Positions 7,771 to 53,976 of a stretch of 57,674 nucleotides of DNA are shown piece by piece; position 1 is the first letter of the stretch; each line of letters opens with the position of its first letter. The DNA comes from a virus. The notes beneath the pieces are model-generated. The model was not told the origin of the DNA and did not search any database. It worked only from the letters and a program-made list of their open reading frames with translations. Location of the stretch: positions 1-57,674 of the IMG/VR virus record IMGVR_UViG_3300023198_000698; one strand, written 5' to 3'. The translations under genes were made by a program, and so were the position numbers.

Positions 7771-7797
7771 TTATCGGCAGATCCTGGAAATACTTTA
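7771..7797 (-). promoter_or_regulatory. Sigma-28-like promoter, site A
   Basis: In the sense of the minus strand the site reads TAAA, 15 nt, GCCGATAA, an exact match to the FliA/sigma-D consensus. The TAAA includes the stop codon of the upstream gene. It would drive the zinc-binding gene that starts at 7728. A short dyad (CGGCT-ACTGAC-AGCCG) follows in the predicted leader. Confidence 0.7.
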
Positions 7798-9986: not shown

Positions 9987-10013
9987 ATATCGGACGGTAT
10001 CGGAAAAACTCAA
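9987..10013 (-). promoter_or_regulatory. Degenerate sigma-28-like promoter, site O
   Basis: On the minus strand: TTGA, 15 nt, TCCGATAT. The spacing is conserved but both boxes deviate from the consensus. It lies just after the late-operon terminator, in the right place to restart transcription for the SSB-like gene about 120 nt downstream. The match is weaker than at sites A-E. Confidence 0.45.
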
Positions 10014-40336: not shown

Positions 40337-40975
40337 TTAGCTTCGGCCTTCTTCGCGGACTAGCCGACCGTATTCGGTCAGGTGCCAATGCTTGGAGGTT
40401 AGCCGGATGCGGGGGATCTGGTGAAGGCTGACAGGTTTTTTGTCGCCTTCCACTAGGTAAGCCTTCCACGTTCCGCGGGTTGAGTGGTTGTAGGTGACTC
40501 GGGTGTAAAGTCTCGCGCCGTCGTGTCGGGTGGCTTCGTGCATGTAAGTGTAGCGGCCGAGGCTGGCGCTCTGCTCGGCGGTCAGGTCTACGTTCGGCGC
40601 GTCTTTGAGCGCGAGCCGCTGCTTCTCATGGGGGACCGCGGCCGGCCGCTTGACTGAGTTGCACTCAATTACGACTTCCACATGGGAGATTACGAGGCCC
40701 TTAAACGCATTGGCGGCGGTCTCTTCGAACCACATGGCTCCGGGTTGGAAGGTCTTCAGGCCCTCGATCACGGCGTCCACAGTGGCGGCTGCGGCGATGT
40801 CGTGGCAGATCTGGACGAAGGCCGCATTCTCCGGATGCTTGGCGGCGTCGTTCGTGAAGGTATCCTGGAGGGCGCCGTTCGCGGCTTGGAAAGCCTTCAG
40901 GAGGGCCATATTCCCGCGGTGTCCGTGGGTGGCGAGTGTTTCGACTGCTTGCTTCAGGTATTGTGTGCTATTCAT
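40337..40975 (-). CDS. Hypothetical protein driven by promoter site B
   Basis: The 212-residue protein has a helical N-terminal half (NMALLKAFQAANGALQDTF, AFVQICHDIAAAATVDAVIEG) and a second half of mixed structure ending in a winged-helix-like segment (SLHQIPRIRLTSKHWHLTEYGRL). Its leader contains the CGGAGAAAAAGATCATG-type sequence shared by several genes of this region, and a sigma-28-like promoter lies about 50 bp upstream. Function is unknown. Confidence 0.65.
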   Translation of the reverse strand: MNSTQYLKQAVETLATHGHRGNMALLKAFQAANGALQDTFTNDAAKHPENAAFVQICHDIAAAATVDAVIEGLKTFQPGAMWFEETAANAFKGLVISHVEVVIECNSVKRPAAVPHEKQRLALKDAPNVDLTAEQSASLGRYTYMHEATRHDGARLYTRVTYNHSTRGTWKAYLVEGDKKPVSLHQIPRIRLTSKHWHLTEYGRLVREEGRS

Positions 40976-41023
40976 GATCTTTTTCTCCGTCGTTCGTTTG
41001 TTTCGTTTTCCGTCTCTGGTTTA

Positions 41024-41050
41024 CTATCGGCAGATCCCGGCAGGACTTTA
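41024..41050 (-). promoter_or_regulatory. Sigma-28-like promoter, site B
   Basis: Minus-strand reading: TAAA, 15 nt, GCCGATAG. The TAAA includes the stop codon of the upstream gene. The downstream sequence AAACCAGAGACGG resembles the start regions of sites C, J, K and L. It would transcribe the 212-residue gene. Confidence 0.7.
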
Positions 41051-41311
41051 GTCGGCCGGCGTCCAGTGTTGGAGCTTCATCCCGCGGTAGGCGATCCCGT
41101 AGGCTCGGCGGATGCCTTCCCGGTGTCCGACGCGGAGCGTGATGTCCGTCGCCTCGAGCTCCTCTTTCAGGGATGCCAGGACATGCTCCAGGACTTGCGC
41201 CGTGGTCCGCTGCTTCAGCTCGAAGATGGAAGCGTCCACCGTTCCGAGGCGAATCGCGAAGTGAAGCGCCTTCTCCCAGGGGGCTGAATTGTCTAAGTCT
41301 ATTCGTTTCAT
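41048..41311 (-). CDS. Hypothetical protein, 87 residues
   Basis: A small alpha/beta protein (KALHFAIRLGTVDASIFELKQRTTAQVLEHVLASL, ATDITLRVGHREGIRRAYG). The leader CGGAGACAAGATCATG is shared with five other genes of the region. The stop codon is embedded in promoter site B. Function is unknown. Confidence 0.6.
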   Translation of the reverse strand: MKRIDLDNSAPWEKALHFAIRLGTVDASIFELKQRTTAQVLEHVLASLKEELEATDITLRVGHREGIRRAYGIAYRGMKLQHWTPAD

Positions 41312-41327
41312 GATCTTGTCTCCGTGG

Positions 41328-41639
41328 TTATTCGGCTGTCAGGCCGAGGTTTTCGTCTTCCCATCCGTTCGCGATCGCGTCAACCATGCTGCAGAGGTGG
41401 CTGTTCAGAGCTGATTTGGCTGCGTCCGCGTTGTAAAATCTAGTTGCGTTGTAGCTCGGTCCCGGCTTCGTGATCGGCGCGGTCCTCATGATCGCCGCCC
41501 GGACCTTCCGGACCTGCGGCAGGGTGACCCCGTGAGCCTCGGCGGTGAGGCCGATCATCTGCCGGTCTTCGATCCCGCCTTCGACGAGATCCTTCGCGAT
41601 CGCCGCCGCCTTCGTCCGATTCATTGTCTTCGCTCTCAT
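41328..41639 (-). CDS. Hypothetical protein, 103 residues, with a possible helix-turn-helix
   Basis: Residues 5-55 are helical with a segment (RQMIGLTAEAHGVTLPQVRKVRAAI) resembling a helix-turn-helix, suggesting DNA or RNA binding. The C-terminal part has a helix (AAKSALNSHLCSMVDAIAN) and an acidic end. A GAGG ribosome site precedes the ATG. It could be a regulator of the accessory genes, but this is inferred. Confidence 0.6.
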   Translation of the reverse strand: MRAKTMNRTKAAAIAKDLVEGGIEDRQMIGLTAEAHGVTLPQVRKVRAAIMRTAPITKPGPSYNATRFYNADAAKSALNSHLCSMVDAIANGWEDENLGLTAE

Positions 41640-41650
41640 GGGGGCCTCGG

Positions 41651-41752
41651 TTACAGGATCGCCAGGACAACGAAGCCGATCCCGATGATCGTTCCGATGA
41701 TTAGGGTCAGATTCGCCTTCGCGGCTTCGAGCAGGTCTTCGGTTCGGTTCAT
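41651..41752 (-). CDS. Membrane micropeptide, 33 residues
   Basis: After a short polar start (NRTEDLLEAAKANL) the sequence is a single hydrophobic helix (LIIGTIIGIGFVVLAIL) to the end. It has its own sigma-28-like promoter (site C), which argues that it is a real gene in spite of its size. Inner-membrane location is expected. Role unknown. Confidence 0.6.
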   Translation of the reverse strand: MNRTEDLLEAAKANLTLIIGTIIGIGFVVLAIL

Positions 41753-41797
41753 GTCGTTCTTTCGGTTCGGTCGTTTCGTTATCCGTCTCTGGTTATG

Positions 41798-41824
41798 TTA
41801 TCGGCAGGCCGGCGGGGAACTTTA
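41798..41824 (-). promoter_or_regulatory. Sigma-28-like promoter, site C
   Basis: Minus-strand reading: TAAA, 15 nt, GCCGATAA, an exact consensus match, preceded by GC as in sites A, D, E and F. It lies in the gap upstream of the 33-residue membrane peptide gene. Confidence 0.75.
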
Positions 41825-41845
41825 GCCCCCGCCTGCCGTTTTTCT

Positions 41846-42061
41846 TTACCGGACCCCGATCCATTCGTAGGTGGCCAGATCCATGTCGCGGAGGACGTCG
41901 TAGCTCGGGACGATCGCTACGTTCCCGGCCTCGACTTGGGAGGCGAGGAAGAGGACGAGGGCGGTCGCTCGGGGACCTTGGCAGGCGCCGACATGGCGCT
42001 GGAGGCGTTCGAGGCTGATAAAGGGATGCTTCTTGATGGTCGCGATGATTTTTGCGTTCAT
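41846..42061 (-). CDS. Hypothetical helix-turn-helix-like protein, 71 residues
   Basis: The chosen start ATG has the CGGAGACAAGATC leader immediately before it. The open frame also extends to a GTG 12 codons upstream that coincides with the predicted transcription start. The product (IIATIKKHPFISLERLQRHVGACQGPRATALVLFL) looks like a short winged-helix domain. A regulatory role is possible. Driven by site D. Confidence 0.6.
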   Translation of the reverse strand: MNAKIIATIKKHPFISLERLQRHVGACQGPRATALVLFLASQVEAGNVAIVPSYDVLRDMDLATYEWIGVR

Positions 42062-42104
42062 GATCTTGTCTCCGGTTTTTTCGTTGTTCTCGTTCACACC
42101 TATA

Positions 42105-42131
42105 ATATCGGCAGGACCGCTGGGAACTTTA
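42105..42131 (-). promoter_or_regulatory. Sigma-28-like promoter, site D
   Basis: Minus-strand reading: TAAA, 15 nt, GCCGATAT. Seven bases after the -10 box comes GTGAACGAGAAC, the initial transcribed sequence shared in form with sites E, F and I. It drives the 71-residue gene. Confidence 0.72.
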
Positions 42132-42157
42132 GCGTCCCCGCAGGTCCTTGATTTGTA

Positions 42158-42340
42158 TCAGCTTAGCTCGCGAGCTTTGAGGGTGACGGGGCCGTCTTGG
42201 CGGTCGTATCCGGATCGTTCCAGGTCGCGGCGAGCGAGCTTGACGGCGTCGGCCTTGGTGGCGGCTTCGTATTCGTCCACGCTCGGCTGCTCATGGAGGG
42301 CGGGGAACTTCGCGGTGATCGTGACTTCGTAGCGTTTCAT
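42158..42340 (-). CDS. Hypothetical protein, 60 residues
   Basis: The ATG has an AGGAAA ribosome site close by; a GTG 12 codons upstream lies at the predicted transcription start of site E. The product has a ferredoxin-like strand-helix pattern (RYEVTITAKFPAL, EYEAATKADAVKLARRDLE). No family is recognised. Confidence 0.6.
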   Translation of the reverse strand: MKRYEVTITAKFPALHEQPSVDEYEAATKADAVKLARRDLERSGYDRQDGPVTLKARELS

Positions 42341-42383
42341 CTGTTTTCCTTCGGTTTTTTCGATTGTTCCGTTCACGCTTATA

Positions 42384-42410
42384 CTATCGGCAGATCCGCG
42401 GGAGACTTTA
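42384..42410 (-). promoter_or_regulatory. Sigma-28-like promoter, site E
   Basis: Minus-strand reading: TAAA, 15 nt, GCCGATAG, followed after seven bases by GTGAACGGAAC. The full context GCTAAAGTCTCCC matches sites C, D and F. It drives the 60-residue gene. Confidence 0.72.
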
Positions 42411-42442
42411 GCGCCTCCCGCAGGCCCCTGCCTTTGAAGATC

Positions 42443-42655
42443 TTAGGCGGCTTCGCCGGCCAGCGTCCCGGCTTCCTCGGCGTTCCGCAGGTAGGCGCGG
42501 ATGTCGGAGATGTTCACATATCCGTCGAGGCGGTCGCCGCATCGGAATTTAGAGCTTGCGAGGTGGCTGCGGAGGTCGTCGAGGCCCTGCTTCACGGCGG
42601 CGAGTTCTTTTTTGGCGGCGGCGGCTTCGAGCTGGAGGCGTTTGATGTAGTTCAT
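42443..42655 (-). CDS. Small coiled-coil protein, 70 residues
   Basis: Residues 1-35 form a charged helix (IKRLQLEAAAAKKELAAVKQGLDDL), and the C-terminal half contains a short domain (DGYVNISDIRAYLRNAEEAG). The start has GGAAACAAG upstream; a GTG 14 codons earlier again coincides with the predicted transcript start (site F). Function is unknown. Confidence 0.6.
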   Translation of the reverse strand: MNYIKRLQLEAAAAKKELAAVKQGLDDLRSHLASSKFRCGDRLDGYVNISDIRAYLRNAEEAGTLAGEAA

Positions 42656-42704
42656 CTTGTTTCCTTCGGTCTTCGGTGTTTCGTTTATTCCGTTCACACC
42701 TATA

Positions 42705-42731
42705 CCATCGGAAGAACTCCGCGGAACTTTA
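42705..42731 (-). promoter_or_regulatory. Sigma-28-like promoter, site F
   Basis: Minus-strand reading: TAAA, 15 nt, TCCGATGG. The -10 box carries two substitutions, but the spacing, the GCTAAAGTTCC context and the following GTGAACGGAA are conserved. It drives the 70-residue coiled-coil gene. Confidence 0.55.
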
Positions 42732-42739
42732 GCCTGATT

Positions 42740-44143
42740 TTAATCTTCTCGGAAGTGCTTCTGCCAGAGGCGTCCCAGGACCTCGATCGCGAGGCTCCCC
42801 TGCTTCGCCTTGCCTTCTCCGTCGATCAGCCGGCCGGCGAGGGCGCCCTTGGCCAGGACGCAGCGGTCGACCTCCTCGTCCACGGAGAACATCCGCGGCC
42901 ATATCGCCGTCACTGGATTGAATTGTCCTGCTCGGTGGGCGCGGTCCTCCGCCTGCTCGGCGTCCGCCAGGGTCCAGGGGCGATCGACAAGGATGATGTA
43001 GGACGCCCGGGTGAGGTTCAGGCCGACGCCGCCGGCGTAGGTGAAGGAGACCGCCTTCGATGCGCCATCCTGGAAGCCGTCCACGATCTCCTGCCGGCGC
43101 TTCTTGGTGGTCTCCCCGGTGAAGATCGGGACGCGGAGGCTGGCGCCGATCGTCTCCGCGGTCTCGATGTAGGCCGAGAACAGAAGGACGGAGTGTCCTT
43201 GCCCGATCAGGTCTTGAGCCAGGGTGACGACGTGCGGGACCTTCCAGGCCGAGCAGAGCATCCGGGTTTGCGAGAGCGCGGTGATCGCCAGGGTCCCCGG
43301 GTCTCCGCCTTCCTCCGCCTTCTCTCTGGCGTCGTCGATCGCCCGGGAGAGTGCTCGCCTGTAGTCCACCGCCTCCTCTTGGCTCGGCTCGATCTCTAGG
43401 ATCTGGCGCGTCTTCGGTGGCAGGTCCAGGCAATCCTTCTTCAGCCGGCGGATCGTAAACGGCGCCATGATGCCGTGAAGCTCCTCGATGTTTGTCGCTC
43501 CGGAGTTCTCCCAGAAGTGAATCGTCTTCCCGGTTTTCTTCTGAATCTTCCGCAGGTGGCCGGCGCAATAACGCTTGTCGTAGTCGGTTGATCGGTCGGC
43601 GATCTCATGTCCGAGAGCGCGGAGGATCGGGAACAGCTCACGCGCTCTGCCGTTCCGGGTCGGTGTTCCGGAGACCGCGAAGACTGCGGCAGCATGTTTC
43701 GCCCAATCCAGGAACCGCTTCGTCCGGACGGACTTCATGGACTGGATCTGCTGGACTTCGTCCCCTACCAGAACGAACGGGAAGTCTCCGCCGAACATCT
43801 CGAACATCGGCTCCGGGATGCTGGCCCAGGAGAACGTCGAGACGCGGACCCCGACGATCCGGGCCTCTCGCTGCCAGTTCGTTGTCAGGCTCGCGGGACA
43901 CGCGACGAAGACGGGGAGGTTCATCCATCGCTGGATCTCCAAGCAAGCCAGCAGGACGGAGCGCGTCTTGCCGGTCCCCATCTCGGATGCGAGCAGGATT
44001 CGGCCGTCTCGGAGCATCTGCTCGGCGTCCTCGATCTGGTGGGCGAACGGCTTGGAGCCGTCCTTGAATTCGAAGCCGTGGAGGCCGGCGGTCTCGATCA
44101 GGTTCCAGCGGCTCCACTCTTTGCGGCGTTCTTCGAAGGTCAT
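42740..44143 (-). CDS. SNF2-type superfamily 2 helicase / DNA translocase
   Basis: The 467-residue protein has all core motifs: the Q-motif region (PFAHQIEDAEQ), motif I EMGTGKT (54-60), motif II GDEVQ (126-130), motif III SGTP (157-160), motif V AGGVGLNLTRA and motif VI QAEDRAHRAGQ. It would move along double-stranded DNA and remodel bound proteins. No nuclease or other domain is attached. The start overlaps the peptidase/VWA stop as ATGA and has a strong GGAGG ribosome site. Phage SNF2 proteins can act in replication, recombination or counter-defence. Confidence 0.9.
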   Translation of the reverse strand: MTFEERRKEWSRWNLIETAGLHGFEFKDGSKPFAHQIEDAEQMLRDGRILLASEMGTGKTRSVLLACLEIQRWMNLPVFVACPASLTTNWQREARIVGVRVSTFSWASIPEPMFEMFGGDFPFVLVGDEVQQIQSMKSVRTKRFLDWAKHAAAVFAVSGTPTRNGRARELFPILRALGHEIADRSTDYDKRYCAGHLRKIQKKTGKTIHFWENSGATNIEELHGIMAPFTIRRLKKDCLDLPPKTRQILEIEPSQEEAVDYRRALSRAIDDAREKAEEGGDPGTLAITALSQTRMLCSAWKVPHVVTLAQDLIGQGHSVLLFSAYIETAETIGASLRVPIFTGETTKKRRQEIVDGFQDGASKAVSFTYAGGVGLNLTRASYIILVDRPWTLADAEQAEDRAHRAGQFNPVTAIWPRMFSVDEEVDRCVLAKGALAGRLIDGEGKAKQGSLAIEVLGRLWQKHFRED

Positions 44144-45546
44144 TCCACCGCCTCCAGGCAGGTCCCGAAGTTCGGCTTGCCGTAGCGCCAGTCGTGCTGC
44201 GCGGTCTTGACCCAGAAGCAAGGGACGCCAGGGTTCACGACGGCCGTCATGGGGAGATACATGTCCGAGATCACGATCACCCAGGCCCACTCTTTCGCGC
44301 CGGCTTGGTAGCCGATCTGAGTCAGGGCGGGATTCAGGTCCGTCCCGCCGCGTCCATACCATTCGGTCGGGACCTTGATCGGGAAGTCCGCCGCGGTGAA
44401 CTTCTTCTCTTCGCCGACGATCCGCGTGTCGCACTGGATCAGACTGATCTCTGCGCCGGCGAATTCGCGGACGATCTCTTCGATCCGGGCGAGGGTGCTG
44501 TCCATCTCTTTCGCGGACATGCTACCGGACGTATCGACGAGGACGACGCCCTTCCCATTATTCCGATCGACGTTCGACGGCATGATCACGTCCGAGCGCC
44601 AGGAGGACTTCCGGTTCGCCCGGGAGTAGCTCTGGCCATCGTCGCCGAGTTCCTGCATGAGGTTCTTCAGGTGGTGGAACCACTGGACGCGGTTCTTGGA
44701 GGCGAGCGCCTGCTGCATTTGCTTGGCCCAACCGGGCGAATTGCCGGCCATCTCCGCCGCCAGGATACCCTCGGAGACGATCTCTTCCCAGGTCTGCTCC
44801 GCCTGCTGGACTTCCTCAGGCTTGACTTCGAGGACTTCGCCGACGTCGCCTTCTCCCGCGGTGGCCGGATCGAAGGTCTTTTCGCCTTTGTTTTCGCCCT
44901 GCTCGCTGCCGGGATTCGATTCTCCGCCACTTTGATCGGGTGAGCTGCTAGATCCATCGTCTTTTTGATCGGGATCGCTCTCCGTCGATTCTCCGGACTC
45001 TCCGGGATAGCCGTCTTTATCGTCGAGCTGATCGCCTTCGCCCTGCTCGCCGGCGTCCGATTTGTCCTCTGACTTGTCTTCCGACTTGTCCTGCTCCTGC
45101 TGGCTCTTCTGGAGTTCCTTCAGGTAGAATTCGGCGTCCTTGTTGATCGGCAGCTCGGCGAACGATCCCATCCCCGGGAAGCATCCCAGAGCGCGGAGGC
45201 GATCAGGGCAGCGGCCCTGTATCAGCCAGTTAGCGGCGAGGTCGAAAGCTTGGTTCCGGATCTCCTTGTCGGCGCCGAGGCATCGGAAGTGATGGCCGAG
45301 GAAAACATGAGCGGCTTCGTGAAGGACGACCCAAGCGGCTTCTTCGTTCGTCATCCAGTCCACGAAGGAGCGGTTCCAGAACAGCTCTCCGCCGTTCGTC
45401 GTCATCGTGTCGGTGATCTTGTTGTCTTCGCGGACCGTCCACTGGGCGCGGACAGAGGTGAAGCAGGGGAAGTCTTCGATCAGGCGGTCGAGCGCCCGGG
45501 TGATCTTCGTCTCTGCCTTCGTGATCGTGATTTTGTTTCCGTTCAT
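44140..45546 (-). CDS. Metallopeptidase-like and VWA-domain protein (DUF2201/COG3864-type), partner of the MoxR ATPase
   Basis: Residues 1-125 form a zincin-like domain with VVLHEAAHVFLGHH (HEAAH at 76-80). Residues 150-260 are an acidic, disordered linker (DKSEDKSEDKS and similar). Residues 330-468 form a von Willebrand A domain with an intact MIDAS (VLVDTSGSMS, Thr/Asp in GGTDLNPAL). This architecture is that of bacterial proteins paired with MoxR-type AAA+ ATPases, and is CobT-like in phage annotations. The start ATG sits exactly at the predicted transcription start of site G with no ribosome site, so translation may be leaderless. The SNF2 gene is coupled downstream. Confidence 0.85.
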   Translation of the reverse strand: MNGNKITITKAETKITRALDRLIEDFPCFTSVRAQWTVREDNKITDTMTTNGGELFWNRSFVDWMTNEEAAWVVLHEAAHVFLGHHFRCLGADKEIRNQAFDLAANWLIQGRCPDRLRALGCFPGMGSFAELPINKDAEFYLKELQKSQQEQDKSEDKSEDKSDAGEQGEGDQLDDKDGYPGESGESTESDPDQKDDGSSSSPDQSGGESNPGSEQGENKGEKTFDPATAGEGDVGEVLEVKPEEVQQAEQTWEEIVSEGILAAEMAGNSPGWAKQMQQALASKNRVQWFHHLKNLMQELGDDGQSYSRANRKSSWRSDVIMPSNVDRNNGKGVVLVDTSGSMSAKEMDSTLARIEEIVREFAGAEISLIQCDTRIVGEEKKFTAADFPIKVPTEWYGRGGTDLNPALTQIGYQAGAKEWAWVIVISDMYLPMTAVVNPGVPCFWVKTAQHDWRYGKPNFGTCLEAVE

Positions 45547-45553
45547 GGTAGTA

Positions 45554-45580
45554 ATATCGGCGCGGCAGCGGAAAACTTCA
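45554..45580 (-). promoter_or_regulatory. Sigma-28-like promoter, site G
   Basis: Minus-strand reading: TGAA, 15 nt, GCCGATAT. Seven bases after the -10 box stands ATGAACGGAAAC, where the ATG is the start codon of the peptidase/VWA gene. This implies a leaderless or nearly leaderless transcript. Confidence 0.65.
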
Positions 45581-45588
45581 CCTTTTAT

Positions 45589-45618
45589 TGTCAGAAATTT
45601 GTGCCTCTTTTTCTGACA
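45589..45618 (-). promoter_or_regulatory. Dyad upstream of promoter site G
   Basis: TGTCAGAAA and TTTCTGACA form a 9-bp perfect inverted repeat with a 12-nt spacer. It lies just upstream of promoter site G and after the stop codon of the 117-residue gene. It is AT-richer than terminators in this genome and has no U-run, so an operator is favoured over a terminator. Confidence 0.45.
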
Positions 45619-45626
45619 TTGAGTGT

Positions 45627-45980
45627 CTACTTTTTGGACAGCTCTCGGAGCGCGGCTTCTAGCTGGTTCACCGCCTCGGACAGGGTCCCGGGCAGCGCCT
45701 GAGAATGCCGGCGTCCGGATCGCGGCGGCGGGATCTCCATCTCGATCGTCTCGATCGCCGACCTGATCAGACCCTCGGCGGTGGGCGGCGGGGTGGTGAT
45801 GTGGCTCGCGACCCAAGCCTTGCAGTCCCGGAGCGTCGTCCGGTCATGCAGCGGCTTGCATTCGGCGCCCTGGAAAACTGCGTAGCAACGGACATGGTCG
45901 TCGCTCAGATTCACGATGCAGATGTCCGGATAGGCCGACGACCTCCAAGCGGTCGGGGTAGTCTTTTTCCATGTTGCCAT
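45627..45980 (-). CDS. Hypothetical protein, 117 residues
   Basis: The N-terminal half is alpha/beta (TAWRSSAYPDICIVNLSDDHVRCYAVFQG), followed by a proline/arginine linker and a helical C-terminus (SEAVNQLEAALRELSKK). The start overlaps the preceding stop as TAATG. It lies between two genes of the MoxR/VWA cluster. Function is unknown. Confidence 0.6.
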   Translation of the reverse strand: MATWKKTTPTAWRSSAYPDICIVNLSDDHVRCYAVFQGAECKPLHDRTTLRDCKAWVASHITTPPPTAEGLIRSAIETIEMEIPPPRSGRRHSQALPGTLSEAVNQLEAALRELSKK

Positions 45981-46564
45981 TATTCGGCCTCCTGGACTTC
46001 GCGGATCGCCTTCAGGACCTTCGCGAGGTTCTTGTTGTTCACTTGGACGGAGACGATCGACTCGCCAGACGTCGGCTGCATGTCAACCTTGACCGCGTGA
46101 GCCGGGAAGAAGACGGAGTCGCCCCTGTTCTCGGTGTCCGCGATCTCCGGGAAGACTTTCCCGATGATCGCCGTCCGCTCTCGGAGGCGGAAGCTGGCCT
46201 GCTTCTCCAGGGTCTCCCGGTTGTGCATGTCGAGGGTCAAGCGGTCGAAGTTCTGGGCGAACTCTCTGGCGATCTTGAATGTCTTTTCGTCTGTAACCTT
46301 CCGGATCTTGCGGAGACCTCCGCGGCCGTAGCTCTTGCGCCATTCGATCTCTGCGGTGTCGCTGATGTGGTTCCAGCGGACGGCGATCAGCTCGCGGACA
46401 TGGCGACCGAAGGAGCCGCTCTTCTCCAGGGTGACGAAGCCCCGGGGGATCTTGGTCCCTTTGTTAGCGATCATCTCGGGCTGGCCGGACGGCATGTAGC
46501 CTTTAACGGTGTTCGCGATCTGGTCGATGATGCTGTTCACTGTTTTGATCTGGTCTAGGTTCAT
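45980..46564 (-). CDS. Hypothetical protein of the MoxR/VWA cluster
   Basis: The 194-residue protein begins with a helix (LDQIKTVNSIIDQIANTVKGYM), then a strand-rich middle (ELIAVRWNHISDTAEIEWRK) and a charged end (NLAKVLKAIREVQEAE). The chosen start is the internal ATG before NLDQIK; upstream open frame lies in the hairpin and the next gene's shadow. It is probably co-transcribed with the DUF3150-like gene. No family is recognised. Confidence 0.65.
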   Translation of the reverse strand: MNLDQIKTVNSIIDQIANTVKGYMPSGQPEMIANKGTKIPRGFVTLEKSGSFGRHVRELIAVRWNHISDTAEIEWRKSYGRGGLRKIRKVTDEKTFKIAREFAQNFDRLTLDMHNRETLEKQASFRLRERTAIIGKVFPEIADTENRGDSVFFPAHAVKVDMQPTSGESIVSVQVNNKNLAKVLKAIREVQEAE

Positions 46565-46584
46565 GGTCTTTTCTTTCTTGGTTG

Positions 46585-46615
46585 GGGAAGGGAGGCTTCC
46601 TTGCCTGCCCTTCCC
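46585..46615 (-). terminator. Hairpin between the DUF3150-like gene and its downstream neighbour
   Basis: GGGAAGGG and CCCTTCCC form an 8-bp stem around a 15-nt loop, 20 nt upstream of the next start codon. No U-run follows. It may attenuate transcription or protect mRNA ends. Confidence 0.45.
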
Positions 46616-46629
46616 GGGTTGGGCAGTTC

Positions 46630-47505
46630 TTAGAATTGGAAATTGTCGAGTTCGTCGATCGTGTCGGCGGCGACCTGCTTCACTTCGTTCCGGACCGTCC
46701 GGGACTCGCGGACCGCGTCCGGGTTCATCGCGCCGAACTTGTCGCTGATCCGCTTCAGGGTCTCGTCGAGCTTCACGGAGCCGACGACGTTCAGGCCCTG
46801 CATCTCGTCGCACAATTCCCAGACGTTTGTCAGGAGGCTATCCTTAAAATGCTTGTCGGTGTTCGGCTGATTGCACTCTTCCAGCTTCTTGACGACGTGG
46901 GCGAGCTTCTTGGAGACCCGGGCGAGAACGTCGCGCTGGGATTCGAAGAGCTGCTCTCGGACGGAGGCTTCCTGGCTGGCTTTGATCTTCTCGACTTCTT
47001 CGGCCGGAAGCGAGGCGAGGCGGATGTCGGAGGCGCGGGAGACCGCGGAGGTCCGGACGTTGAAGCGGAACTTGCCGGCGAAGCCAGCCTTGTCCGGGAA
47101 GTTGACTTCCGGGGTGAGACCGTTCAGGCGCTTGTGGACCTTCGCGGCGATCTCGTCGTAGCGGCCGACCGCGGCTTGAACGGCGTCTTCGAACTTCGCC
47201 TTCGCGACTTCGAGCGCGTCCTTGGTTTTCAGGTAGCGGCCGACGGGGACCAAGCGCATCCCGTTATCTTCCCACGGGAGGCTGCTCCCGATCCAGACGG
47301 CTCTCGCTTCGCTGCGAGCTGCCATGATGTCCTTACGGTCGGCGGGGTCCATCGCTTTCAGGACCGTCGAGATCGCGTCTTCGTCGGCGCCGTGAGTCGC
47401 TGCGGCTTCCTTGGAAAGCTTGTCGCATTTGACGTTGCCGGCGTAGGTTCCGACGCTGAGCTTGACTAGGACGCATTGTTCGCTGATGTCTTTTGTTTGG
47501 TTCAT
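46630..47505 (-). CDS. DUF3150-like protein, third member of the MoxR/VWA set
   Basis: The 291-residue protein starts with EQCVLVKLSVGTYAGNVKCDKLS and continues with a helical body (AARSEARAVWIGSSLPWEDNGMRLVPVGRYL, FEDAVQAAVGRYDEIAAKVHKRL), the plan I recall for DUF3150 proteins that accompany CobS-like ATPases and CobT-like VWA proteins in phages. The assignment is tentative. The start has the CGGAGACAAGATC leader, and promoter site H lies 44 bp upstream. Biochemical role unknown. Confidence 0.6.
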   Translation of the reverse strand: MNQTKDISEQCVLVKLSVGTYAGNVKCDKLSKEAAATHGADEDAISTVLKAMDPADRKDIMAARSEARAVWIGSSLPWEDNGMRLVPVGRYLKTKDALEVAKAKFEDAVQAAVGRYDEIAAKVHKRLNGLTPEVNFPDKAGFAGKFRFNVRTSAVSRASDIRLASLPAEEVEKIKASQEASVREQLFESQRDVLARVSKKLAHVVKKLEECNQPNTDKHFKDSLLTNVWELCDEMQGLNVVGSVKLDETLKRISDKFGAMNPDAVRESRTVRNEVKQVAADTIDELDNFQF

Positions 47506-47548
47506 GATCTTGTCTCCGTTCTTTGTTTGGTTTTCCGTCACTGGTTTA

Positions 47549-47575
47549 CTATCGGCTAATCTGCTGAAAGCTTTA
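47549..47575 (-). promoter_or_regulatory. Sigma-28-like promoter, site H
   Basis: Minus-strand reading: TAAA, 15 nt, GCCGATAG, followed after seven bases by GTGACGGAAAAC. It drives the DUF3150-like gene and perhaps the following two genes. Confidence 0.75.
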
Positions 47576-47579
47576 GGAT

Positions 47580-47753
47580 TTATTCGCTTGCCCAGTCGAT
47601 CACCGCGTTCGCGTCTGCCGTGTGCCTCGCCGCCGAGGTCTGGGTCGCGACGATCTGCTTTGCGCTGCTCTTCGCGAATTGGGCGAGCTGTCCGCCTTTG
47701 AAGGTGATCAGGAGCGCCACTGCGAGGAGGAGGATCGAGCCGGTTTTTTTCAT
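47580..47753 (-). CDS. Small exported or membrane protein, 57 residues
   Basis: The start ATG begins a signal-anchor sequence: two lysines, then a hydrophobic core (TGSILLLAVALLITFKGG), followed by a short polar domain (AQFAKSSAKQIVATQTSAARHT). It has its own promoter (site I). A GTG 12 codons upstream lies at the predicted transcription start. Role unknown; it may act at the inner membrane. Confidence 0.6.
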   Translation of the reverse strand: MKKTGSILLLAVALLITFKGGQLAQFAKSSAKQIVATQTSAARHTADANAVIDWASE

Positions 47754-47796
47754 CTTGCTGCTTTCGTTTTTTTCGTTGTTTCCGTTCACAGTAATA

Positions 47797-47823
47797 ATAT
47801 CGGCCAGATCTGGCTATTCTTTA
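47797..47823 (-). promoter_or_regulatory. Sigma-28-like promoter, site I
   Basis: Minus-strand reading: TAAA, 15 nt, GCCGATAT, then GTGAACGGAAAC seven bases later. It lies partly inside the 3' end of the upstream gene and drives the small membrane protein gene. Confidence 0.75.
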
Positions 47824-48101
47824 GGGTTTTTCTCTCTTTTCTCGTAAGTGCCTGATCCGGTGAGGTTTGTCTGGAAGACTCCAGGAACGCCTTCCCAGGT
47901 CGCTTTGCAGTCAGGGCAGGAGCAAGGCTCGATCCGCTTGGCGGCGGCTCGGAGGTCCGCCCGGGTCCATTCGTGGAGCGCGTGGACGCCGTCGCAGGCC
48001 CAGCCGGTCTTCAGGTTCGCCCAGAAGCCGTCGCCGGTTCCGGCCTCGCTCCAGACCTCGGAGATCCGGGGATCTTTTCGGAGCTGTTCGAGTATGGTCA
48101 T
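47814..48101 (-). CDS. Hypothetical protein with a CxC/CxxC motif, 95 residues
   Basis: The protein has a helical start (ILEQLRKDPRISEVWSEAG), a tryptophan-rich centre (DGFWANLKTGWACDGVHALHEW) and a CSCPDC motif near residue 60, perhaps a metal site. Promoter site I overlaps its last codons. It follows the terminator of the MoxR gene. Function is unknown. Confidence 0.6.
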   Translation of the reverse strand: MTILEQLRKDPRISEVWSEAGTGDGFWANLKTGWACDGVHALHEWTRADLRAAAKRIEPCSCPDCKATWEGVPGVFQTNLTGSGTYEKREKNPKE

Positions 48102-48125
48102 GTTGCGCCTTTCGATTTAAAGGGT

Positions 48126-48164
48126 CCGGGAGGAGGAGGACGGAGAGGCCTCCCTCCCTCCCGG
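48126..48164 (-). terminator. Intrinsic terminator-like hairpin after the MoxR gene
   Basis: CCGGGAGG and CCTCCCGG form an 8-bp GC-rich stem with purine/pyrimidine-rich loop sequence that allows more pairing. It is followed in the direction of transcription by ACCCTTTAAAT. It ends the MoxR transcript. Confidence 0.55.
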
Positions 48165-48181
48165 CAGCAGGCGTCCGCGGA

Positions 48182-49210
48182 TCAGGCGGCTCGCTTGCCT
48201 TCCCAGATTTGATACTCGGTCGTCGCGACGATCTCAGGGCAAGCCTTGGCGAGCTGCCGGATGAAGAAGGAGGCTTGCTCGGTCGCCCAGCGCATCGCGT
48301 AGGTCAGGAACTTCTTGGCCTTCGTCGGCGTCTCTTTCGCCTTGCGGACGAGGAAGAGCGAGAGCGCGAACGTCACGTCCACCTTGTCGGGTAGTCTGCA
48401 GCCGGCCGGATCTTTCAGGATCTCGTCTTCGGTCGGCGCGTTCTTCCAGATCTTCACCCATCCCATGAATTCGTTCGCGGCTTCGCTGCCGACGCAGCCG
48501 GCGACCACTGCGCGGATGATATCGCCGACCGGGAAGTTCACCGTCTCGCTGATCTGGTGAAGCGTGTCGGCCATCTCCCAGGTCCGCTTCGTGACGCTGC
48601 CAAGCTCGATCATCTCGCCGCCGGCGGGACCGTTCCAGACGTCGTTCCGATACTGCGCGAAGGCTCGCATTGCGGGAGAGATCCCGGCGTCTTCGGCCCA
48701 GCTATCCCAAGCTTCCAGGGCCTGCTCGGAGTCGGTTTCCATGTAGATGTGAACCATCCGCGAAGCGGCAGCTTTGGACATCATGTTCGTCCCGACGTCG
48801 GTCGCCTGATTGCCGGCGATCACCATCCGGGCGCCGGATTTGATCTTGCGGCCGAAGACTTGGCGGTCGAGGACGATCTGGAGGCTCATGTTCTGAACCT
48901 GCATCTTGGCGCGGTCGTATTCGTCCAGGAAGACGATCGACTTCTCGTCGTCGGCGCCGATGCCTTGGAAGGGGATCAGGTCCGTCATGAGATACTTCAG
49001 GCGCTCGCCGTCCGGGAACGGGATCGCGAAGTCCGAAGGCTCCTTGTCACCCAGGCGGACGTCGTAAAGGTTCCATTTGAGGCGCTTCGCGATCTGCGCG
49101 ACGATCGCCGACTTGCCGGTTCCAGGTTTGCACCAGACCGCGACGGGGATGTTTGCCTTCAGGCAGAGGGCGATCGCTCGGGCGGTTTGTTCTTGGTTCA
49201 GTTTTTGCAT
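48182..49210 (-). CDS. MoxR-type (CobS-like) AAA+ ATPase
   Basis: The 342-residue protein has Walker A CKPGTGKS (27-34), Walker B SIVFLDEYDRA (91-101), sensor 1 in MVIAGNQ (129-135) and a sensor 2-like arginine in GSVTKRTWEMADTL. This is the MoxR branch of AAA+ proteins, which pair with VWA proteins to remodel or insert metal into target proteins. It has its own promoter (site J), the CGGAGACAAGATC leader and a terminator, so it is expressed as a single gene near its presumed partner at 44-45.5 kb. Confidence 0.88.
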   Translation of the reverse strand: MQKLNQEQTARAIALCLKANIPVAVWCKPGTGKSAIVAQIAKRLKWNLYDVRLGDKEPSDFAIPFPDGERLKYLMTDLIPFQGIGADDEKSIVFLDEYDRAKMQVQNMSLQIVLDRQVFGRKIKSGARMVIAGNQATDVGTNMMSKAAASRMVHIYMETDSEQALEAWDSWAEDAGISPAMRAFAQYRNDVWNGPAGGEMIELGSVTKRTWEMADTLHQISETVNFPVGDIIRAVVAGCVGSEAANEFMGWVKIWKNAPTEDEILKDPAGCRLPDKVDVTFALSLFLVRKAKETPTKAKKFLTYAMRWATEQASFFIRQLAKACPEIVATTEYQIWEGKRAA

Positions 49211-49255
49211 GATCTTGTCTCCGTTTCGTTGTTTCGTTGTCCGTCTCTGCTTAAG

Positions 49256-49282
49256 CTATCGGCATCCTTGCCGAAAGCTTGA
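49256..49282 (-). promoter_or_regulatory. Sigma-28-like promoter, site J
   Basis: Minus-strand reading: TCAA, 15 nt, GCCGATAG. The -35 box has a substitution, while the -10 and spacing are conserved. Followed by TTAAGCAGAGACGG as in sites B, C, K and L. It drives the MoxR gene. Confidence 0.6.
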
Positions 49283-49296
49283 GATGTTTTTTCTGA

Positions 49297-49695
49297 TTAA
49301 TGATCTCCCGCGGGACCCTTGCGATAGCCAATGCTGCGGACTTCGAACTGTATCGTCCCCGGGATCTGGGTCACTGTCGCGACCGTCGCGGTCATGAATT
49401 CGATTGCTGCCAGGACGATCTCGATCTCTCCGACCAAGATGTTCGCGAAGATCGGGGCCTTCCAGTCGGCCGGATTGGCGACCGCGGTGAAGGCAGTCTT
49501 CAGGGCGCCGACCGTGAACTTGCCGCAGGTCTGCGCGTTCATCTCGGCGGCTTGCGCGGCGTCCAGCTCACGATAGAGGCGTTCCAGTCTTTCGGTGGCT
49601 CCGCAGACCCCGCCGGCGTCCAGGACTTGGGAGGCGGCGTAGCGGTTCTGGTTCTCGATCTCGATCTGCTTTTTGATTTGTTCGGTTTTGGTCAT
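49297..49695 (-). CDS. Hypothetical protein, 132 residues
   Basis: A helical first half (EQIKKQIEIENQNRYAASQVL, LERLYRELDAAQAAEM) is followed by a more hydrophobic second half (IFANILVGEIEIVLAAIEFMTATVATV). The CGGAGACAAGATC leader and promoter site K precede it. Function is unknown. Confidence 0.6.
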   Translation of the reverse strand: MTKTEQIKKQIEIENQNRYAASQVLDAGGVCGATERLERLYRELDAAQAAEMNAQTCGKFTVGALKTAFTAVANPADWKAPIFANILVGEIEIVLAAIEFMTATVATVTQIPGTIQFEVRSIGYRKGPAGDH

Positions 49696-49740
49696 GATCT
49701 TGTCTCCGGTTTTTGTTCTTGTTTCCCGTCTCTGGTTATA

Positions 49741-49767
49741 ACATCGGCAGGCCCCAAGATTACTTTA
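49741..49767 (-). promoter_or_regulatory. Sigma-28-like promoter, site K
   Basis: Minus-strand reading: TAAA, 15 nt, GCCGATGT. It is followed by TATAACCAGAGACGGG. It drives the 132-residue gene. Confidence 0.7.
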
Positions 49768-49786
49768 GGCCCACCGTGAGATTTGT

Positions 49787-49975
49787 TTAGGCAATGCGAT
49801 CGAGGATCGCGACCGAGGACCTGATCCGGGACGCTTCGGCGGCGAGGTCGTCGATCTTGCGGAGCAGGGCTCCGGTGCCTTGTTGGTGACGGCCGCAGGC
49901 GATGTTCGCCGCGTGGTGAGTCTTCCGTAGTTCCGCTTTGATCTCTTCGAGTCTGTTTTCGAGCTGGCTTTTCAT
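49787..49975 (-). CDS. Small helical protein, 62 residues
   Basis: A charged helical hairpin (SQLENRLEEIKAELRKTHHAAN and LLRKIDDLAAEASRIRSSVA). An AAGGA ribosome site and promoter site L precede it. It resembles many short phage coiled-coil proteins, and its function is unknown. Confidence 0.6.
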   Translation of the reverse strand: MKSQLENRLEEIKAELRKTHHAANIACGRHQQGTGALLRKIDDLAAEASRIRSSVAILDRIA

Positions 49976-50020
49976 CGTTTTTCCTTCGGTTCGTCGTTTC
50001 GTTTCCCGTCTCTGGTGGTA

Positions 50021-50048
50021 ACATCGGTAGCTTCTGGCGAAAGCTTTA
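50021..50048 (-). promoter_or_regulatory. Sigma-28-like promoter, site L
   Basis: Minus-strand reading: TAAA, 16 nt, ACCGATGT. It is the only site with 16 instead of 15 bases between the boxes and has an A for the first G. The context and following CAGAGACGGG are conserved. It drives the 62-residue gene. Confidence 0.5.
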
Positions 50049-50051
50049 GGA

Positions 50052-50261
50052 TTATTTCACCCATTCGGCGCCGGCGGTCGTTAGCTTGTTTCCGGCCCAG
50101 CCGTCCGTCACCGTGTATTCGATGATTCCAGCCTCACGGAGTTCGGCGAGCGCGGCCTTCGTGGTGGGGCGGAGGTTCGGGGCCTTGACCCAGCCGGTCC
50201 CGTGCGCGTTGTCGTGGGCGGTGGCGAGGATCGCTTGCTGGGTTTTATTGAGCTTTTTCAT
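50052..50261 (-). CDS. Winged-helix-like DNA-binding protein, 69 residues
   Basis: The sequence (KTQQAILATAHDNAHGTGWV, LRPTTKAALAELREAGIIEYTVTDGW) has the helix-helix-wing pattern of small MarR-like or phage regulatory domains. The ATG has GAAGGC upstream, with a GTG 13 codons earlier at the predicted transcript start of site M. It is the best candidate in the window for a regulator of the accessory genes, but its target is unknown. Confidence 0.6.
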   Translation of the reverse strand: MKKLNKTQQAILATAHDNAHGTGWVKAPNLRPTTKAALAELREAGIIEYTVTDGWAGNKLTTAGAEWVK

Positions 50262-50307
50262 CTTTTTGCCTTCGGTCTTCGTTGTCTCGTTCTCTGTCAC
50301 TGGTTTA

Positions 50308-50334
50308 ATATCGGCAGCTTCTGGCGAGACCTGA
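50308..50334 (-). promoter_or_regulatory. Sigma-28-like promoter, site M
   Basis: Minus-strand reading: TCAG, 15 nt, GCCGATAT. The -35 box is poor, but the -10, spacing and following GTGACAGAGAAC are conserved. It drives the winged-helix gene. Confidence 0.5.
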
Positions 50335-50348
50335 AGGATTATTTCAGA

Positions 50349-50591
50349 TTATTCGACCCCGCTGAATCCGCCGCCCTTGACCTCGGACCTCATGGCTGCT
50401 GTGCTGGCGAGATCGGTGGCCTTCCAGGTCCTCCATTCCTGCTCTGCCGCGGCCTTCGTTTCCTTGGGTTCCCCTACGGTCCATCCCATCGACCGATCGA
50501 CGGCGAACCATTTTCCGGTCTTGGGATGCTTCGCCGTGCTGGGAGTCAGCTCTGCGGCTATTGCTTTGGCTTTTTCGAAGAGTGCGTTCAT
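50349..50591 (-). CDS. Hypothetical protein, 80 residues
   Basis: The ATG has an AAAGGAA ribosome site. The product contains a helical start (LFEKAKAIAAELTP) and a lysine/tryptophan-rich middle (HPKTGKWFAVDRSMGWTVGEPKETKAAAEQEWRTW). No family is recognised. Confidence 0.6.
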   Translation of the reverse strand: MNALFEKAKAIAAELTPSTAKHPKTGKWFAVDRSMGWTVGEPKETKAAAEQEWRTWKATDLASTAAMRSEVKGGGFSGVE

Positions 50592-50604
50592 GGGTTCCTT
50601 TCCT

Positions 50605-50736
50605 TTAGTGCTTTTTGAGTTCGCGGACGATCCCGGCCCAATGCCACTTGACCTTGTGGTCGAGGGCGAGGCAGTAGGTGTGTAGGATGATTCTCCCCGT
50701 CCGGGTCGTCGCCAGTTTTGATTTTATCGCTCTCAC
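50605..50736 (-). CDS. Possible leaderless 43-residue protein from a GTG start
   Basis: A GTG seven bases after the -10 box of site N opens a basic frame (RAIKSKLATTRTGRIILHTYCLAL) ending just before the 80-residue gene. No ribosome site exists, so it would have to be translated from a leaderless transcript, as proposed for the peptidase/VWA gene. The frame may also be only the 5' leader of the downstream gene. Confidence 0.4.
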   Translation of the reverse strand: MRAIKSKLATTRTGRIILHTYCLALDHKVKWHWAGIVRELKKH

Positions 50737-50743
50737 GATAATA

Positions 50744-50770
50744 CCATCGGCATCCCGCAGAAAAACTTCA
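50744..50770 (-). promoter_or_regulatory. Sigma-28-like promoter, site N
   Basis: Minus-strand reading: TGAA, 15 nt, GCCGATGG, then GTGAGAGC seven bases later. It is the rightmost member of the array. A dyad (GAGACAG-TTC-CTGTCCC) lies 35 bp upstream. Confidence 0.55.
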
Positions 50771-50804
50771 GGAGTTTTTTTCACTTTCCCCGGTGTCCAT
50801 TGTT

Positions 50805-50821
50805 GAGACAGTTCCTGTCCC
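50805..50821. promoter_or_regulatory. Dyad upstream of promoter site N
   Basis: GAGACAG and CTGTCCC are inverted repeats with one mismatch and a 3-base centre. Its place upstream of a promoter fits an operator. The rest of the 50737-50951 gap contains no convincing gene. Confidence 0.4.
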
Positions 50822-50951
50822 AAAAGTAGACCTGGATTCCGGGAGTGCAAGATGGAAGCGTGAGAAGCTGCAGGAAGGGGGCGCCGGCGCGCCCAGGCTC
50901 GCCAGGAGACGCCGGCCGACCGTCTGAAGGGGATCAGGGCAGGCGGACCGC

Positions 50952-51185
50952 TTAAAGCCTCCTGAGTGATCCGTCCGGACGCCATTGGTAGGCGCGTCCG
51001 TCGTGCATCTTGAAGGGTTTAGCGGAATCGGATGGAATCCCGTTATGGAAGCCGGCGCGATGCAGTAGGGCGAACCTGGACGGAATCTGCCGGTGGAGTC
51101 CAGGGGCGCGGTCCGCCCGGAAGCGGCTGCGGATCGGGGCGCCTTTGTCTGGCGTGAATATCGGGTGATAGTGTGATGCTTTCAT
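50952..51185 (-). CDS. Hypothetical basic protein, 77 residues
   Basis: The product is rich in Arg, His and Pro (PIRSRFRADRAPGLHRQIPSRFALLHRAG) and ends in a more natural segment (MHDGRAYQWRPDGSLRRL). An AAGGCA lies before the ATG. It is not recognised, and the composition leaves some doubt about its frame. Confidence 0.45.
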   Translation of the reverse strand: MKASHYHPIFTPDKGAPIRSRFRADRAPGLHRQIPSRFALLHRAGFHNGIPSDSAKPFKMHDGRAYQWRPDGSLRRL

Positions 51186-52595: not shown

Positions 52596-52930
52596 TCTTC
52601 TTTCGTTCTTCGTTGGTGTTCCCTTGTCAGCATCGCGCCGACAAGGAGGTCACGGACCTTTGTGATGTGTTTACACTGCAGCGGGAGGCCCTTGTTCGCT
52701 CCGCTGTTCAGGTGCTTCTGCTTCTTGAACGTGAACTCCTCGCATGTGCAAGATCCGTTTCGGTCGCCCTGAAGTTCGTAGTCCATCAAGTCGACGAGAT
52801 ACTCCTTCCCTGGAGTTGTCTCGGACTCGACGATCCAGCGCGTCCAGTCGTCCTCCTCCGGTCTCGCTCTGGCGGTCAGCTTGCGGACAAGCTGGGCGAC
52901 CCAGGACACGCCCGAAGGGATCATGTTCAT
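52592..52930 (-). CDS. SWIM-like zinc protein, 112 residues
   Basis: The motif CTCEEFTFKK followed by QCKHITKVRDLL gives CxC (61, 63) and CxH (86, 88), the SWIM zinc-binding pattern found in proteins that bind DNA or protein, often with RecA-like or helicase partners. The first 50 residues include WIVESETTPGKEYLVDL, a strand pair before the finger, as in the family. It is tightly coupled with its neighbours. Confidence 0.7.
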   Translation of the reverse strand: MNMIPSGVSWVAQLVRKLTARARPEEDDWTRWIVESETTPGKEYLVDLMDYELQGDRNGSCTCEEFTFKKQKHLNSGANKGLPLQCKHITKVRDLLVGAMLTREHQRRTKEE

Positions 52931-53391
52931 CGGCTGGCGGTCGCCGGCTTCCAGCCTGCCTTAGGCTTCCAGTTCTTCCAGGGTTTGCCGTTGCCGTGAG
53001 TTGCGACGATCGTCACCGCTTCGGCCGGCGGTGGGATGATGAACGGCGCCGGCGCGGCGGCAGGGATCTCCATCGCCTTCCAGTATCGGATCGGGACGCG
53101 GTTCGTTCGCCCCATGAAGACGGTCTCCACCTTCCAGGCGAAGTTCCAGCTCTGCGGGGTCGGCGGCTGCTGGCAGTGCTGCGCGGTCCGCCAGTCCACA
53201 AGGTTAGTCGATGTGAGGAGCAGCCAGTTCGTGACGGACGTCCGGGTCGTGACGGTCCCCTCATGGAGGCCGGTTAAGTGATTGCCGAGGACGATCGGTT
53301 CGGCGTTTGCTACGCGGACCGCCGCCCATAGCAACGCTGCCAGCGTGATCATGATCGCGATATAGAATTTTTTGAATTTGTGCTTGTTCAT
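52927..53391 (-). CDS. Secreted protein with a TSTNLVDW-type motif
   Basis: A signal peptide is clear (HKFKKFYIAIMITLAALLWAAVRVANA). The mature part contains NWLLLTSTNLVDW and, about 50 residues later, PIRYWKAMEIP, a pattern I know from beta-domains of Verrucomicrobiota secreted proteins (STNL-x-W). The C-terminus is Pro/Trp/Lys-rich. It would act outside the cytoplasm. This gene could be a host-derived moron, and its neighbours are cytoplasmic nucleic-acid proteins. Confidence 0.6.
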   Translation of the reverse strand: MNKHKFKKFYIAIMITLAALLWAAVRVANAEPIVLGNHLTGLHEGTVTTRTSVTNWLLLTSTNLVDWRTAQHCQQPPTPQSWNFAWKVETVFMGRTNRVPIRYWKAMEIPAAAPAPFIIPPPAEAVTIVATHGNGKPWKNWKPKAGWKPATASR

Positions 53392-53445: not shown

Positions 53446-53976
53446 TTATTTAGGGTGAGAGATCAGATCGACGTGGACGACATGCTTCATCGACTTGCCG
53501 ATCCCGTGGAATAGCGCCTCGAACGATCGCTGCAGGCGCGGAACCTTCGAGATGTTCGGCGCGTCGTTTGGGACCCTGATCTCGAAGACGGTGATCGTCG
53601 GGCTTGCGGATTTAACCTCGATGGCGACGGAGCAGAAGATCGCCTCGGATGTATCCTTCAGGAGCTTCTCGAATGTCGCCTTGTCCCAGTTTTCTTGTGC
53701 GACAAATTTGTGAGTCGGTGGCGTCTTGCTTGTGGCGGTCGGCTCCAGGAGTTCGATTCTCACAAGCTTCCCGTGTCGGTCGCCGGCTTCTTCGGAGACG
53801 GCGATCAGCGCGTCCAGCGTCGAGCGTTGCTGTCCGAGGACCTTCCCTTGGTCGTGCTTTCCGACTTGAATGGTGAGGATCGTCGATCGCTGGAGGGCGC
53901 ACTCCGTTACGATTGCAGATCTCTTGTCCCAAACCAATCCGTTCACTAGTCTTTTAACGAGTTCCATGATGTTCAT
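53446..53976 (-). CDS. KH-domain-like (KhpA-like) RNA-binding protein
   Basis: Residues 15-75 (VTECALQRSTILTIQVGKHDQGKVLGQQRSTLDALIAVSEEAG) match the KhpA plan: strand, helix, strand, GKVIG-type loop and helix. The GXXG loop reads GQQR, so the second glycine is missing, which may weaken RNA contact. The C-terminal 100 residues are a separate alpha/beta domain (EAIFCSVAIEVKSASPTITVFEIRV). It may modulate host or phage RNA. Its precise role is unknown. Confidence 0.6.
   Translation of the reverse strand: MNIMELVKRLVNGLVWDKRSAIVTECALQRSTILTIQVGKHDQGKVLGQQRSTLDALIAVSEEAGDRHGKLVRIELLEPTATSKTPPTHKFVAQENWDKATFEKLLKDTSEAIFCSVAIEVKSASPTITVFEIRVPNDAPNISKVPRLQRSFEALFHGIGKSMKHVVHVDLISHPK

Follow-up and report, generated by a model that had tools for sequence, protein, structure and literature searches.

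A regulon-like array of predicted sigma-28-class promoters ahead of accessory genes in a phage contig

Introduction

Promoters of the sigma-28 class have been described in several bacterial systems. At the aer promoter of Escherichia coli, most of the sigma-28-dependent activity is lost when TAAAG is mutated at its T, its third base, or its G, or when the CGA core of the -10 box is changed (PMC2859248). The clade member WhiG acts as a sporulation sigma factor in Streptomyces, and in Rubrobacter it has been connected with type IV pilus genes (PMC8325347). FliA is a global regulator of attack-phase Bdellovibrio, in which TTAAG-N16-CCGATA promoters serve a large and mostly non-flagellar gene set (PMC3627812). 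Here, we describe an array of fifteen sites of this type on a viral contig, IMG/VR record IMGVR_UViG_3300023198_000698, which was analyzed as one window over its full length of 57,674 nucleotides (nt). Phages relying on the host RNA polymerase are usually thought to use promoters of the housekeeping sigma factor. The best explanation of the array, judged from sequence, is that the sites are likely promoters read by RNA polymerase with a host-supplied factor of the sigma-28 class (FliA/SigD/WhiG clade).

Results

Identification of the sites and chance controls

All fifteen sites (A to O) proposed in a first-pass annotation of the contig were located at their positions, and all lie on the coding (-) strand, which carries nearly all genes (Table 1). 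As that annotation had claimed, TAAA is exact in 10/15 sites, GCCGAT is present in 12/15, and a 15-nt spacer separates the boxes in 14/15, with 16 nt in site L (50048); in addition, a scan of the contig revealed no 10/11 match to the core in the structural operon, which had been described as free of sites. The full pattern TAAA-N15-GCCGATAA occurs twice (7771-7797 and 41798-41824), with 0 occurrences expected.

The E. coli FliA consensus TAAAGTTT-n11-GCCGATAA (PMC2859248) was used as an external probe that owes nothing to the contig. The coding strand contained 11 matches of at least 13/16 to this consensus, 10 of them being sites of the first-pass annotation. No match of this quality was obtained on the opposite strand or with the wrong spacers n8, 9, 10, 12, 13, and 14, and the average in 20 Markov-simulated sequences was 0, which upholds the proposed match of the boxes to the flagellar sigma consensus. 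A count of all gapped 4+4 dimers made without any assumed motif ranked AAGT-N15-CGAT first on the coding strand (12 observed versus 1.1 expected), and this dimer had 0 occurrences on the opposite strand. Two extra 10/11 core matches that are absent from the earlier set, at 54191 and 55911, both lie within genes, the latter being the eleventh match of at least 13/16. Both probably arose by chance, and 55911 is probably not a promoter.

Anatomy of the sites

The aligned consensus of the 15 sites is C-TAAAGTTTT-N9-T-GCCGATA-NTATAA. When compared with TAAAGTTT, the -35 columns agree in T15, A10, A14, A14, G15, T11, T9, and T10 of the 15 sites. The corresponding -10 counts against GCCGATAA are G12, C15, C15, G15, A15, T15, and A11, followed by a variable eighth base, and CCGAT is kept in 15/15 sites. 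The two 8-mers are 11 nt apart (15 nt after TAAA) in 14/15 sites. The TTTT that follows TAAAG is enriched, a feature missing from the first-pass annotation. Among the aligned sites, the two boxes have pairwise identities of 0.79 and 0.78, against 0.38 for the spacer and 0.30 for the sequence upstream. The lack of conservation in the spacer and upstream suggests that selection maintains the boxes and that the elements are not recent copies.

The distance from the end of the -10 box to the ATG is 42-49 nt in 12/15 sites, one of the open reading frames (ORFs) so placed having only 33 codons, and these start codons usually have a ribosome site of the GGAG or GAAGG type. This placement agrees with the earlier statement that the sites lie 5' of a gene and point along it. 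The sites at 45580, 10013, and 50770 differ, with distances of 7, 127, and 152 nt, respectively, and the one at 50770 is within a longer ORF. The ATG located 7 nt past the -10 box at 45546-45580 suggests that the transcript of the VWA gene is perhaps leaderless. The leaders 3' of the sites are alike in composition, as would be expected of copied repeats, but such repeats, or chance matches, without promoter function are contradicted by the empty controls and the dimer ranking, as well as by the low spacer and upstream identity and the near-constant ATG distance, and can be dismissed with near certainty. A T-poor leader was also considered as a special feature and rejected, since the entire coding strand is T-poor; over the whole contig, the coding (-) strand contains 16% T versus 24% A.

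At 6/15 sites, namely A, C, D, E, J, and K, the sequence contains strong inverted repeats, with fold z values from -2.5 to -5.2. In several of these, the -35 box occupies the loop and the stem takes in part of the -10 box. These repeats may represent a terminator of the upstream gene, an operator, or neither. A hairpin as a general trait of sigma-28-type sites in phages was rejected, since the other array sites resemble random positions and most of them lack such repeats.

Table 1. Predicted promoter sites and the two genes with Pfam matches in the 57,674-nt contig
Feature	Positions	Strand	Sequence	Gene behind the site or Pfam match	Match to FliA consensus	Distance to ATG (nt)
Site A	7771..7797	-	TAAAGTATTTCCAGGATCTGCCGATAA	ORF, ATG 7728	15/16 (core 11/11)	42
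Site B	41024..41050	-	TAAAGTCCTGCCGGGATCTGCCGATAG	ORF 40337-40975	13/16	48
Site C	41798..41824	-	TAAAGTTCCCCGCCGGCCTGCCGATAA	33-codon ORF, ATG 41752; ORF 41328-41639	15/16 (exact pattern)	45 (to ATG 41752)
Site D	42105..42131	-	TAAAGTTCCCAGCGGTCCTGCCGATAT	ORF, ATG 42061	14/16	43
Site E	42384..42410	-	TAAAGTCTCCCGCGGATCTGCCGATAG	ORF, ATG 42340	14/16	43
Site F	42705..42731	-	TAAAGTTCCGCGGAGTTCTTCCGATGG	ORF, ATG 42655	12/16	49
Site G	45554..45580	-	TGAAGTTTTCCGCTGCCGCGCCGATAT	VWA/DUF2201 gene, ATG 45546	14/16	7
Site H	47549..47575	-	TAAAGCTTTCAGCAGATTAGCCGATAG	ORF, ATG 47505	14/16	43
Site I	47797..47823	-	TAAAGAATAGCCAGATCTGGCCGATAT	ORF, ATG 47753	13/16	43
Site J	49256..49282	-	TCAAGCTTTCGGCAAGGATGCCGATAG	MoxR-type AAA gene	13/16	45 (to ATG 49210)
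Site K	49741..49767	-	TAAAGTAATCTTGGGGCCTGCCGATGT	ORF 49297-49695	12/16	45
Site L (spacer 16)	50021..50048	-	TAAAGCTTTCGCCAGAAGCTACCGATGT	ORF, ATG 49975; same leader form		45
Site M	50308..50334	-	TCAGGTCTCGCCAGAAGCTGCCGATAT	ORF, ATG 50261	12/16	46
Site N (doubtful context)	50744..50770	-	TGAAGTTTTTCTGCGGGATGCCGATGG	within ORF 50605-50985	13/16	152 (to ATG 50591)
Site O (weak)	9987..10013	-	TTGAGTTTTTCCGATACCGTCCGATAT	ORF, ATG 9859	12/16	127 (to plausible ATG)
MoxR-type AAA ATPase	48182..49210	-		bpMoxR 5.8e-07; AAA 2.4e-05
VWA/DUF2201 putative metallopeptidase	44140..45546	-		DUF2201_N 4.6e-15; DUF2201 4.9e-14

Assignment to the sigma-28 class

The genomes of 84,980 species were scanned with CTAAAGT-N12-CTGCCGATANTATA (a pattern also written with CTGCCGATA), which corresponds to a spacer of 16. 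The scan yielded 15 stretches with this variant, and the phyla represented are unrelated. A FliA_WhiG-family sigma factor scoring over the curated cut-off was present in 15/15 of the genomes with the variant versus 3/14 control genomes, suggesting that the motif goes with sigma-28-class factors. Among the proteins encoded downstream of the genome matches, flagellin and FliS had clear Pfam matches, a flagellar rod protein remained below the cut-off, and the other proteins examined had no flagellar Pfam match. On reading the aligned sites, we saw no TTGACA spaced from the AT-rich stretch as in the TTGACA-N17-TATAAT of sigma-70 early phage promoters. The two boxes and their spacing, the additional TTT of the -35 box, and the sigma factor in 15/15 genomes together make it very probable that the sites are sigma-28-class promoters.

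The consensus is common to FliA and WhiG (PMC8325347), so the motif by itself does not imply motility. The factor could therefore be a non-flagellar member of the clade, either WhiG-like or a sigma-28 factor as found in non-motile bacteria, linking the phage to host development. This special case of a host-supplied sigma-28-class factor draws on the identical promoter specificity of WhiG, by which clade members cannot be separated, but the flagellar genes behind the genome matches and the resemblance of sites to those of motA and tar fit FliA at least equally well, and we consider it rather unlikely. A FliA factor in a flagellated, presumably motile host is moderately favored over other members of the clade.

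Similar arrays in other phages

IMG/VR was scanned with TAAAGTT-N12-GCCGATA. Most single matches to this pattern are expected by chance, and among the matches listed were several contigs with arrays. Counted over whole records, TAAA-N16-CCGATA occurred 17 times in record G002, 7 in G007, 5 in G008, 4 in G006, and 3 in each of G001, G004, G005, and G015, compared with 0 to 2 per record for the reversed control. Record G003 contained five array-type sites and two others versus four control matches. The extended form TAAAGTT-N12-GCCGATAAGTAT was found in 18 IMG/VR stretches, and its reversed control gave 0. The sites of other phages typically precede a ribosome site and an ATG.

When the proteins encoded on the retrieved stretches, which are parts of genomes, were compared, the array carriers separated into about ten lineages without detectable kinship, which makes repeated acquisition of the trait probable. 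The sites and leaders most like those of the contig are found in L241 and L244 (58-59% guanine plus cytosine, spacer 16), yet L241 alone has a protein in common with the contig, namely a tail protein (24%). The 17-site array of L018 (record G002, 169 kb) has the variant form TAAAGTTAGAT...TCCGATAT. In L078 and L248, both from T4-like records, TTGACA is located within the sigma-28-type spacer and a TATAAG or TATAGA stretch lies downstream, possibly representing overlapping sigma-70 and sigma-28 promoters. Searches of an open-access library turned up no earlier account of such arrays in phages, which is a lead rather than proof of novelty.

Repeats ahead of many phage genes are often binding sites of a phage activator or repressor or promoters of a phage-specific RNA polymerase, and six of the fifteen sites fall within hairpin-forming inverted repeats, so the boxes might be elements of this kind with a fortuitous likeness to FliA promoters. 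However, a spacer of fixed length and unconserved sequence, an independent consensus matched at both boxes, and the same boxes in phages without detectable protein kinship argue against this explanation, as does the fact that the single-subunit RNA polymerases of phages use promoters that form one contiguous block. We regard it as very improbable.

Origin of the sigma factor

The first-pass annotation had left open a sigma factor of the host or one of the phage itself. No protein of the 57.7-kb contig matched Sigma70_r2 or FliA_WhiG over the cut-off, and Pfam scans of 30 contig proteins, including most of the unknown ones, revealed no sigma family and no anti-sigma (FlgM) family. A host factor is favored because the contig yielded no sigma gene, and if the sites are sigma-28-class promoters, then their factor is highly likely to be supplied by the host.

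Several observations weigh against the proposed reading by a host-supplied sigma-28-class factor. TAAA deviates in 5/15 sites and GCCGAT in 3/15, and the test on bacterial genomes used a spacer of 16 rather than the 15 of most contig sites. Bdellovibrio was considered as a host because FliA is a global attack-phase regulator there, and no array was found in the complete genome of its phage phi1422 or in the first 20 kb of its phage phi1402, which leaves the idea of a predator phage unsupported. Finally, the contig is linear with genes near both ends, and it is possibly incomplete and could omit a sigma gene of the phage.

The last point is also the basis for an alternative in which the gene for a sigma-28-clade factor belongs to the phage but lies in a portion of its genome that the contig lacks. 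Phages can bear sigma genes; array record G003 contains one of the extracytoplasmic function (ECF) type and one that we read as gp55-like, and G006 contains one that we also read as gp55-like. The ECF-type gene lies on L124 (record G003, 236 kb), a large phage contig with sigma-28-type sites. However, no sigma family was detected in 57.7 kb here, 23/25 other site-bearing phage records, several of them 50-183 kb, had no Sigma70_r2 match, and the few sigma genes in array phages are ECF-type or gp55-like, not FliA-like. A phage-encoded factor is thus improbable.

Under the preferred explanation, a sigma-28-class holoenzyme would be already present in the host cell at infection, and transcription would begin just downstream of GCCGATA at every site. 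The transcribed set would consist mostly of small accessory genes together with the MoxR and VWA genes, and the structural operon would be transcribed by another route. The genes behind the sites may be expressed early.

Genes behind the sites and host affiliation

The genes behind the sites are mostly small, as had been noted, and include a MoxR gene and a VWA gene, both with Pfam matches (Table 1); the remaining ones, where tested, had no Pfam or PHROGs family. Distant relatives of the MoxR protein were observed in phage contigs L243 and L212, the former also encoding a distant relative of the VWA protein and the latter having a sigma-28-type site. The protein at 53446-53976 had a weak match to the KH domain of KhpA/KhpB, under the Pfam cut-off.

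The nearest terminases (~41%) are from podophages of alphaproteobacteria, and the portal protein reaches ~31%. Single-sequence scans with the terminase or MoxR detected no close IMG/VR relative, and no tRNA genes were found on the contig. The protein at 52927-53391, which had no Pfam or PHROGs family match, contains STNLVDW, a motif that we take to be common in Verrucomicrobia and that offers a weak hint of the host.

Discussion

The reading of phage genes by host RNA polymerase is known; the proposed use of a flagellar-class sigma factor and the regulon form set the present case apart. We tentatively suggest, with somewhat less than even confidence, that a host flagellar-class sigma factor as a main route to non-structural genes is a widespread phage strategy that arose recurrently in unrelated lineages, with infection depending on the state of motility or development of the host. 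If so, phage gene expression would be tied to a host state that varies from cell to cell, which could account for phages whose growth is confined to cells that are motile or developing. For uncultivated phages, the motif would also hint at the physiology of the host. Since arrays occur in about ten lineages that are apparently unrelated, a laboratory test becomes possible once any one host is found.

Comparison with known systems

Among described promoters, those of E. coli FliA (tar, motA, aer, and tsr) agree with the contig sites in the two boxes and in the 11 nt that separate the 8-mers (PMC4183435, PMC2859248). Site D (TAAAGTTCCCAGCGGTCCTGCCGATATT) closely resembles the motA site TAAACTTTCCCAGAATCCTGCCGATATT, and site C closely resembles the tar site (PMC4183435). 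In contrast to the E. coli promoters, the sites on the contig would drive phage genes, are arrayed, and have an AT-rich NTATAA after the -10 box and a contig-specific leader. The Bdellovibrio FliA regulon is similar in having FliA-type promoters over a large gene set, but it belongs to a bacterial chromosome and not to a phage. The WhiG regulons of Streptomyces and Rubrobacter share the specificity, with a -35 TAAA and a -10 GCCGATAA (PMC8325347). They serve cellular developmental or pilus genes, whereas the sites of the contig would serve phage genes. A further E. coli gene, flxA, presumably belongs to the defunct prophage Qin. Its FliA-bound site, TAAAGATTTTTTTGTGCATGCCGATAGT (PMC4183435), is a single one, in contrast to the predicted regulon of about 15 sites described here.

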